Below are positions 3,392 through 51,632 of a stretch of DNA of 64,000 nt, in pieces. The notes below the pieces were generated by a model, which did no database searches, was not told where the DNA came from, and saw only the letters and a list, made by a program, of their open reading frames with translations. The position numbers were made by a program, and so were the translations under genes. Position 1 is the stretch's first letter. Each line of letters starts with the position of its first letter. Source of the DNA: Halalkalicoccus tibetensis (lineage in GTDB: Archaea; Halobacteriota; Halobacteria; Halobacteriales; Halalkalicoccaceae); contig NZ_JBBMXV010000003.1 of NCBI RefSeq assembly GCF_037996645.1, forward strand, positions 1-64,000, read 5' to 3'.

Positions 3392-4200
3392 AGTATCTCG
3401 CACGCACCCAAGCGGGACGGGCGCTTCTGGGCGACGAGGAGGGGTTCGTCCCGCTGTCGGCCGCGGGGTTCGAGAGGGTTTCCGCGGCCCTCCCCGCCGC
3501 GGCGGCGGGCGAGCTTCCCGCCCCGAGCGAGCTCCCCGTTCGGCGCGTTCCCCGCGAGGGGATCGCGTTCGGGCTTCCGATCGCGCTGGAGGCGCTCGGG
3601 AAGTGCTGGGGGATCGGGCTGAACTACGAGGAGCACGCGGGCGACCTCGACGAGAATCGCCCGGAGGAGCCAGCGAGCTTCATGAAACCGAAAACGGCGG
3701 TGACGGGTCCCGGCGGTCCCGTTCGACTGCCGCCGACAGCGGAGACCGATCGGGTGACCGCCGAGGCCGAGCTCGGGGTCCTGCTCGGGCGGACCGGGAG
3801 CGACGTCGAGGAGCCCGACGACGCGATCGCGGGCTACCTGCCGGTGATCGACATGACCGCCGAGGACGTCCTCGAGCGCAACCCGCGCTTTCTCACGCGC
3901 GCGAAGAGCTTCGATACGTTCCTCGTGCTCGGGCCCGCGATCGCGGTCCCCGACTCGCCGCCCGAGTTCGGCGAACGGCGGGTCGCAACGGTGCGAAACG
4001 GCGAGGTCGTGGCCGAGAACCGGATGGCGAACATGCTGTTCTCGCCCCGCGAGCTCGCCGCCTTCCACTCGCGGGTGATGACGCTCGAGGCGGGGGATCT
4101 GATCTCGACTGGGACGCCCGGAGCGGGCGTCATCTCGGCGGGCGACGGGGTTCGCGCCGAGGTCGAAGGAATCGGGTCGGTCGACGCCGACGTCGTTTAA
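3388..4200 (+). CDS. Fumarylacetoacetate hydrolase (FAH) family protein
   Basis: 270 residues, the normal size for single-domain FAH enzymes, which use a divalent metal to cleave C-C bonds of, or isomerise or decarboxylate, beta-keto acids. Visible signature elements are GLNYEEHA (77-84), the acidic metal ligands E126 and E128 in EAELG and D155 in VIDMTAED, and the late STGTPGAG loop. It is the last gene of the SDR-cupin-FAH unit, starting inside the cupin stop. The set suggests degradation of an oxo-acid or aromatic ring-cleavage product, but the substrate is not identifiable. The stop overlaps the convergent DUF502 gene by 4 bases. Confidence 0.88.
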   Translation: MKYLARTQAGRALLGDEEGFVPLSAAGFERVSAALPAAAAGELPAPSELPVRRVPREGIAFGLPIALEALGKCWGIGLNYEEHAGDLDENRPEEPASFMKPKTAVTGPGGPVRLPPTAETDRVTAEAELGVLLGRTGSDVEEPDDAIAGYLPVIDMTAEDVLERNPRFLTRAKSFDTFLVLGPAIAVPDSPPEFGERRVATVRNGEVVAENRMANMLFSPRELAAFHSRVMTLEAGDLISTGTPGAGVISAGDGVRAEVEGIGSVDADVV

Positions 4201-35739: not shown

Positions 35740-36591
35740 ATGAGAGCAGTCACGCTGGGGCCGGCCGGGACCTACTCACACCGGGCGGCCGGGGCCGTCG
35801 CCAGCGAGGTCGACTTCCGCGAGTCGGTGTCCGGGATCGTCGAGGCCGTCGCGACCGGCGGGGCCGATCGCGGCGTGATCCCCATCGAGAACAGCATCGA
35901 GGGCAGCGTCACCGAGAGCCTCGACGCGCTCGCGGACTACGAGGTGAGCGTCGTCCGCGAGATCGTCACGCCGATCCGCCACGCGCTGCTCGCCCAGGGC
36001 GAGGAGTTCACGACCGTCGCGAGCCACTCCCAGGCGCTCGCCCAGTGCCGGGAGTATCTCGACCGGGAGCACCCCGACGCCGAGATGGAGCCGGTCGCGA
36101 GCACCGCCCGCGGGGTCGAGCGCGCCCGCGAGGACGCCTCGATCGCGGCGATCGGCCACCCGGAGAACGCTGCAGGACCACGTCCTGCTGGCAGTCGGAC
36201 GGAGTCCGACGACGCCGGGGATGACCTCCGGGTCCTCGCCGAGGACATCCAGGACCGCACCTCCAACGCCACCCGCTTTCTGGTCGTCGCCCCCGTCGAC
36301 GCGCGCTCGGAGGCCGGCGGGAAGTCCTCGTTCGTCGTCTATCCGAGCATGAACTACCCCGGCCTGCTGCTCGAGCTCTTGGAGGCGTTCGCCGACGAGG
36401 ACATCAACCTCTCGCGGGTCGAGTCCCGACCGAGCGGCGAACGGCTGGGCGATTATCTCTTCCATTTCGACTGCGAGACCGGCATGTACGAGGAGCGAAC
36501 CCAGAGGGCGCTCGAACGGATCGAGGCGATCGCCGAGAAGGGATGGGTGCGCTGGCTCGGCTCCTACGACACCGAGCACGTTCTGGAATGA
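35740..36591 (+). CDS. pheA: Prephenate dehydratase with a short in-frame insertion
   Basis: 283 residues. It converts prephenate to phenylpyruvate in phenylalanine synthesis. The dehydratase domain has GPAGTYSHRAA, IPIENSIEGSV and the substrate-binding SNATRF (TRF 178-180). The ACT regulatory domain has LLLELLEAFADEDINL and the ESRP motif. Between PENAAG and DDLRVLAEDIQ there is an extra stretch of about 15 residues (around 146-161) encoded by two adjacent perfect DNA palindromes, suggesting an in-frame insertion in a surface loop. All catalytic motifs remain intact, so it should still function. Confidence 0.92.
   Translation: MRAVTLGPAGTYSHRAAGAVASEVDFRESVSGIVEAVATGGADRGVIPIENSIEGSVTESLDALADYEVSVVREIVTPIRHALLAQGEEFTTVASHSQALAQCREYLDREHPDAEMEPVASTARGVERAREDASIAAIGHPENAAGPRPAGSRTESDDAGDDLRVLAEDIQDRTSNATRFLVVAPVDARSEAGGKSSFVVYPSMNYPGLLLELLEAFADEDINLSRVESRPSGERLGDYLFHFDCETGMYEERTQRALERIEAIAEKGWVRWLGSYDTEHVLE
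36172..36210. repeat. Two perfect triloop palindromes inside pheA
   Basis: GCAGGAC-CAC-GTCCTGC (36172-36188) and GTCGGAC-GGA-GTCCGAC (36194-36210). Each is a 7-bp perfect stem with a 3-base loop, separated by 5 bases. They lie exactly where the protein has non-family residues. Confidence 0.8.
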
Positions 36592-51395: not shown

Positions 51396-51573
51396 TCGGT
51401 CCGAGCGACCAACGGGAGCGAGGAGCGTTTTTGCCGCCGGAAAGCGATGCTTTCCGGCTGCTAACCAGAACGCGCCGCGTTCTGGTGATGGTCCAGCTTT
51501 TGCCAGCGAGCGAAGCGAGTGTGGTTCGAGACGGCGGAGCCGTCTCGTCATCCCGAAAGGCTTCGCCTTTCGG
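51396..51573. repeat. Cluster of four perfect triloop palindromes before mcm
   Basis: CCGGAAAGC-GAT-GCTTTCCGG (51437-51457), ACCAGAACGC-GCC-GCGTTCTGGT (51464-51486), GAGACGGC-GGA-GCCGTCTC (51528-51546) and CCGAAAGGC-TTC-GCCTTTCGG (51553-51573). All have perfect stems of 8-10 bp and 3-base loops. Words GCGACCAACGGGAGC (51405-51419) and TGGTCCAGCTTTT (51489-51501) recur at 49331-49370. No ORF in this stretch. Confidence 0.8.
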
Positions 51574-51632
51574 ACGACAGCAATAGGTGGGTCCCGAAGG
51601 TTCATACACGGTCGGCGGCTACAGAAAGCAGT

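Follow-up and report, generated by a model that had tools for sequence, protein, structure and literature searches.

The prephenate dehydratase gene pheA in the 64,000-nucleotide window (the whole stretch of DNA analysed) is interrupted in frame by a 45-bp double hairpin. Judged from sequence, this insert is very probably a copy of a non-autonomous mobile hairpin repeat of haloarchaea, kept in genes as a harmless polar linker. The gene and the parts of the insert are listed below.

35740..36591, + strand: pheA, prephenate dehydratase, the host gene; 283 aa, PDT and ACT domains
36166..36168, + strand: AAC, 5' target trinucleotide of the pheA unit
36169..36213, + strand: 45-bp double-hairpin unit GCTGCAGGACCACGTCCTGCTGGCAGTCGGACGGAGTCCGACGAC, in frame, 15 aa AAGPRPAGSRTESDD; missing in most orthologues
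36172..36188, + strand: hairpin 1, GCAGGAC-CAC-GTCCTGC, 7-bp stem, CAC triloop; stem sequence variable among copies, with compensatory changes
36190..36193, + strand: GGCA linker; since the search pattern demands GGCAG, part of its invariance is built in
36194..36210, + strand: hairpin 2, GTCGGAC-GGA-GTCCGAC, 7-bp stem, GGA triloop
36211..36213, + strand: GAC, 3' end of the unit and near copy of its 5' flank; nearly every coding copy ends in GAC or GAT

Pfam assigned PF00800 (E = 1.6e-45) and PF01842 to the PheA ORF. Both hairpins of the insert are perfect and lie 5 bases apart, joined by TGGCA, with the reading frame kept, as an earlier note on this DNA had described for an in-frame palindromic insertion. 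The 45-bp length given there was also correct; in place of the position given, 36172-36216, the best placement is 36169-36213, 3 bases leftward. Deletion of these bases restores HPEN-AGDDL, the usual loop of relatives. The pair is the only one of 7-bp triloop hairpins 3-8 nt apart within the window, and 60 third-order shuffles of the window contained no such pair. Relative to shuffles, the folding z-score of the insert strand was -3.05 as DNA and -2.81 as RNA. The covariance model R1, described below, matched the unit at 36166-36214 (64.5 bits, E = 5e-15), and an Rfam search with the unit returned no family match.

Single 7-bp triloop palindromes are common in the window (26 versus about 12 expected), so that the support which the earlier note drew from neighbouring palindromes is weak. 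It had taken the same architecture to recur in intergenic DNA of the window; these other palindromes are not copies of the unit, and the next-best R1 match there has E = 0.004. The real support for a mobile unit comes from other genomes. An intergenic array at 51432-51578 consists of four short triloop hairpins, weakly unit-like (R1 E 0.02-0.04), followed by GACGACAGC; it is possibly a diverged relative of the unit.

PheA orthologues were located in 92 of 98 related genomes. Three of the 92 carry the insert: the genome of the window (G000), a second genome of the same genus (G002) and one from another family (G042). The 45 bases are missing at the same place from most orthologues; the opposite outcome, that most haloarchaeal PheA proteins have these residues, was tested by alignment and failed. 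Most full-length pheA matches measure 801-819 bp versus 849 in the window, and five further genomes of the same genus have pheA without the insert. Between G000 and G002, 2 of the 45 unit positions differ, and the remaining gene is 82.6% identical. In G042, a degenerate unit occupies the identical place, and its close relatives are empty. The filled genes of G000 and G002 are non-sisters in the pheA tree, which calls for transfer, loss or repeated insertion: the unit reached its present distribution either by repeated hits, by local recombination between lineages or by precise loss in several species. In another genome, G011 (L019), this PheA loop holds an unrelated, longer insertion that lacks the unit's sequence, which shows that this loop tolerates length changes in general.

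Outside pheA, the repeat is dispersed across the haloarchaea. A weak blastn search located in-frame copies of the double hairpin in a phosphatase-family gene of Halolamina and an oxidoreductase gene of Natrinema, and a further copy next to a transposase in halophilic archaeon DL31. Of 392 Halobacteriales genomes, 82 matched an exact 25-base pattern derived from hairpin 2, with about 146 matches in all, and none matched the reversed control. When all bacterial and archaeal genomes were scanned, the matches listed came almost only from haloarchaea; viral contigs contained no copy of the exact pattern. R1, built from 48 coding copies and applied to at most 15 candidates per genome, detected copies in 318 of 382 genomes, from 84 of 93 genera. 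The proposal that a small mobile unit had entered the gene is borne out by these data: copies reside order-wide in dozens of unrelated genes, at the ends of TnpB elements and in intergenic DNA, and exact empty sites exist.

The window's own genome has about 17 R1 matches with E below 1e-3, a count that includes some reverse-strand duplicates. They include chains of tandem units within two histidine kinases, as well as degenerate copies in further genes. One degenerate unit of 51 bp lies in frame in an apparent thioredoxin-family gene (IPTVIVERSSTGSQNSESSGEIVERDGEEVARF; G000:C1:774995-775049, L323). In Halorubrum (L101, L135, L141, L143, L147, L174, L180 and others), the unit sits within a longer conserved intergenic repeat, CGCAGCGAGGCGC...GGCGACGAGGCTGGGGAGGCGTGAGG, present in several copies per genome and perhaps representing a larger mobile element.

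The general form of the unit is AG[stem1-triloop]NGGCA[stem2-triloop]GAC, inserted after (G/A)AC, with the consensus (G/A)AC | AG-C-[GAGGCGC gaa GCGCCTC]-T-GGCA-[GCCGGAC gca GTCCGGC]-GAC | G. Stem 1, which lies outside the search pattern, occurs as 35 different sequences in 85 coding copies, nearly all of them perfectly paired. Across 48 distinct copies, a set limited to those with at most two mismatches in each stem and in which stem 2 pairing is partly imposed by the pattern, 99.3% of pairs are formed, with 121 two-sided changes versus a shuffled mean of 34. Slid versions of the stems pair at 29-43% only. The 5' trinucleotide of the 102 coding copies is GAC in 61 and AAC in 18 ((G/A)AC in 79 of 102), codons with shares of 8.0% and 2.2%, respectively, in host genes. 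Head-to-tail chains of units occur as well, joined at GAC|AG with a spacing of 45 or 90 bp.

Coding copies are strongly biased in orientation, frame and length. Coding status and frame were judged from the codon-usage score of the flanks alone, because a GC3-based call is ambiguous between frame +0 and its mirror; by this score, 101 of 104 copies called coding use one strand and one reading frame. Host genes have GAC in codon phase at 4033 of 6096 occurrences, about two thirds, so that target choice alone cannot yield such a bias. The 102 coding copies fall into 50 unrelated gene clusters, of which histidine kinases are the largest host group (21 copies). Pfam confirmed the used frame in ten hosts, including ValRS, TrpA, a molybdopterin oxidoreductase, a beta-CASP hydrolase, an ABC transporter, a P-type ATPase, a CBS protein and uL2. 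The peptide predicted in this frame is about DSEARSASGSRTQSGD, GSRTQSGD-like in the hosts listed. Most other frames read more basic peptides, which would probably fit acidic haloarchaeal proteins poorly. Anchored coding copies are 45, 48, 51 or 54 bp long, all multiples of 3, in 76 of 78 cases, and transposon-end copies are 47 bp in 19 of 26. Stops in the used frame were found in 1 of 102 coding copies, 11 of 28 transposon-end copies and 13 of 29 intergenic copies.

Individual coding copies show further features. In the window's own genome, a unit within a membrane-protein gene (G000:C2:183220-183268, L322) has an in-frame TAG (VEDSEAS*TPLADGEAVDG); it apparently breaks its gene and looks like an insertion awaiting purge. 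Diverged tandem units lie inside the N-box of two histidine kinases (G000:C1:736596-736802, L321; G000:C3:657472-657571, L320), where the motif reads NSVEHGST...DSVEHG. Stem 1 of these units encodes VEHG, so that the unit repeats the motif it interrupts.

Several sites are available in both empty and filled state. In uL2, GAGGAC is followed by AGCGAGGGACAGAGTCCCTCGGGCAGCCGGACGCAGTCCGGCGAC in one genome (G171), while G063 and G102, which belong to the same genus, continue without interruption, a difference of exactly 45 bp. For ValRS, the alignment of G310 with G238 spans 3660 bp at 97.3% identity, and its gaps total exactly 45 bases, which are the unit. The TrpA unit of G062 is missing from relatives, with about 3 further bases changed. 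The terminal hairpin TGACATCCTCCGCGCCGT-GA-ACGGCGCGGCTTCCC of IS200/IS605-type elements is empty, with a 2-nt loop, in 25 cases; in about 23 cases, the IS200/IS605-IS1341 hairpin holds a 45- or 47-bp unit in its apex. Since these hairpins exist in both states, the unit enters transposon ends and was not born as part of them. At the filled ValRS site (L365, G310), an 11-bp direct repeat, GACAGCGAGGA, flanks the unit on both sides, and empty relatives have GA(G/T/C)TCCGAGGA; the repeat may reflect microhomology or conversion at insertion.

These observations suggest a mechanism in which a 45-bp unit of two short triloop hairpins would insert directly 3' of GAC or AAC, its targets being coding DNA, intergenic DNA and the apexes of IS200/IS605-IS1341 terminal hairpins. 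The unit encodes no enzyme and would have to be mobilised in trans, most likely as a folded single strand; such an intermediate is suggested by the covariation of the hairpins and the preference for hairpin apexes as targets. In genes, the survivors would be copies with a length divisible by 3, free of stops and in the strand and frame that give the short polar peptide, properties that would let the host protein tolerate the unit as a surface linker. The frame bias is probably caused by purifying selection, and the insert peptide is probably translated.

Other explanations were weighed against this one. That the unit is a worn right end of an IS200/IS605-IS1341 (TnpB) element or a piece of its omegaRNA, a PATE-like remnant, is suggested by double hairpins that follow transposase genes closely on the 3' side, within the terminal hairpin, and by terminal-only 52-bp PATEs that seem mobile in Haloquadratum according to passages of PMC3119063. 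We consider it improbable: the identical terminal hairpin occurs without the unit, and coding copies are bounded exactly as the apex insert is, not by the TGACATCCTCC...CTTCCC ends, and lack any transposon terminus. An origin as a transposon-end remnant was rejected on the empty terminal hairpins. Mitochondrial byp elements are hairpins bypassed by the ribosome between matching take-off and landing codons, and a short mobile hairpin insert with matching GAC codons on both sides has a similar layout. The unit could go untranslated, through such bypass or through mRNA splicing, which is very improbable, as neither would need lengths in multiples of 3, a stop-free frame or a fixed strand and frame, and the 5' codon is AAC rather than GAC in pheA as in 18 of the 102 copies. 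Translational bypass elements, whose length and stops are free, differ in this respect from the genic units as read from their sequences. It is scarcely credible that the insert is an ordinary length-variable loop without any mobile unit, its palindromic codons produced by chance or local template switching. PheA loop length does vary elsewhere (G011, G078), and template switching can perfect palindromes. Against this stand the recurrence of the sequence in transposon ends and in some 50 unrelated genes, the exact 45-bp gaps in near-identical DNA and the failure of shuffles to produce the hairpin pair. The dispersed homologous copies refute an ordinary loop, and the shuffles rule out chance palindromes.

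If the pheA insert is a mobile hairpin repeat, as we favour, its mover might be a Y1 (HUH) transposase of the IS200/IS605 or RAYT type, acting as on REP sequences. This sub-case would agree with the hairpins, the short target trinucleotide, the lack of a clear target duplication and the preference for IS200/IS605 hairpin apexes, but it is rather unlikely. No transposase could be linked to the unit: the window's own genome lacks Y1_Tnp, as do 11 of 36 unit-rich genomes, and its presence in 25 of the 36 (69%) versus 252 of 382 overall (66%) shows no co-distribution. No Y1 gene flanked by units was noticed incidentally among the loci. Y1/RAYT was rejected as mover for want of an association with unit-rich genomes. 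A more ambitious view, to which we give about even chances, is that the units are an order-wide class of archaeal protein-coding mobile hairpins with a non-Y1 mover. Their 45-bp length and polar frame would allow entry into essential genes (uL2, ValRS), and they would be a recurrent source of new protein segments, even in conserved motifs such as the histidine-kinase N-box.

In the open-access literature, no description of the unit, its peptide or its DNA strings was found; subscription journals were outside the scope of the search. Among haloarchaeal repeats, SMR-A of Haloquadratum walsbyi is about 110 bp long and has terminal inverted repeats according to the passages describing it in PMC3119063. 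As presented there, it resembles the unit in lacking a transposase and target duplication and in inserting into near-terminal palindromes of IS605-type elements. Compared by description only, the unit differs in being 45 bp long, with two independent hairpins and no terminal inverted repeat; in-frame gene copies are unmentioned in these passages on SMR-A, in contrast to the coding habit of the unit. PATEs, also described in PMC3119063, are likewise short haloarchaeal palindromic repeats linked to IS605-type elements, some of about 52 bp, but they keep transposon termini, whereas the unit lies inside the terminal hairpin and its coding copies end AG...GAC.

REP families (PMC3733652) share with the unit short hairpins, some within genes. 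The reverse strand of the unit starts with CGTC in 77 of 85 copies, partly imposed by the pattern, as in CGTC-REPs and RPE-4/6 (PMC3733652). CGTC-REPs, however, are bacterial and have 8-9 bp stems, 4-5 nt loops and a 3-nt tail (PMC3733652), against 7 bp, 3 nt and always two hairpins in the unit. Unlike GTAG-REPs, the unit has no GTAG tag in its consensus and no RAYT/Y1 association.

The closest known system in behaviour is the Rickettsia palindromic elements (Ogata et al. 2000/2002), bacterial repeats of about 150 bp in the accounts excerpted from PMC10969869 and PMC3733652. In those accounts, they too are in-frame palindromes within protein genes unrelated to one another; they encode a conserved peptide and are tied to no transposase. 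By size and description the haloarchaeal unit is set apart from them: it is archaeal and order-wide, measures 45-54 bp, consists of two separate triloop hairpins and also occupies transposon hairpin apexes. In-frame invasion of coding genes has been found mainly in Rickettsia and was only conceivable elsewhere according to a 2024 MITE review (PMC10969869). In the present data it appears across the whole of a major archaeal order, where empty sites are clean, the hosts include essential genes and the filters on length, strand, frame and stops can be measured. The unit accounts for odd insertions of 15 residues in proteins of haloarchaea, and it is relevant to the ends of TnpB omegaRNAs, which it also enters. 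Haloferax-type genetics could make hairpin movement and the entry of new protein loops testable.
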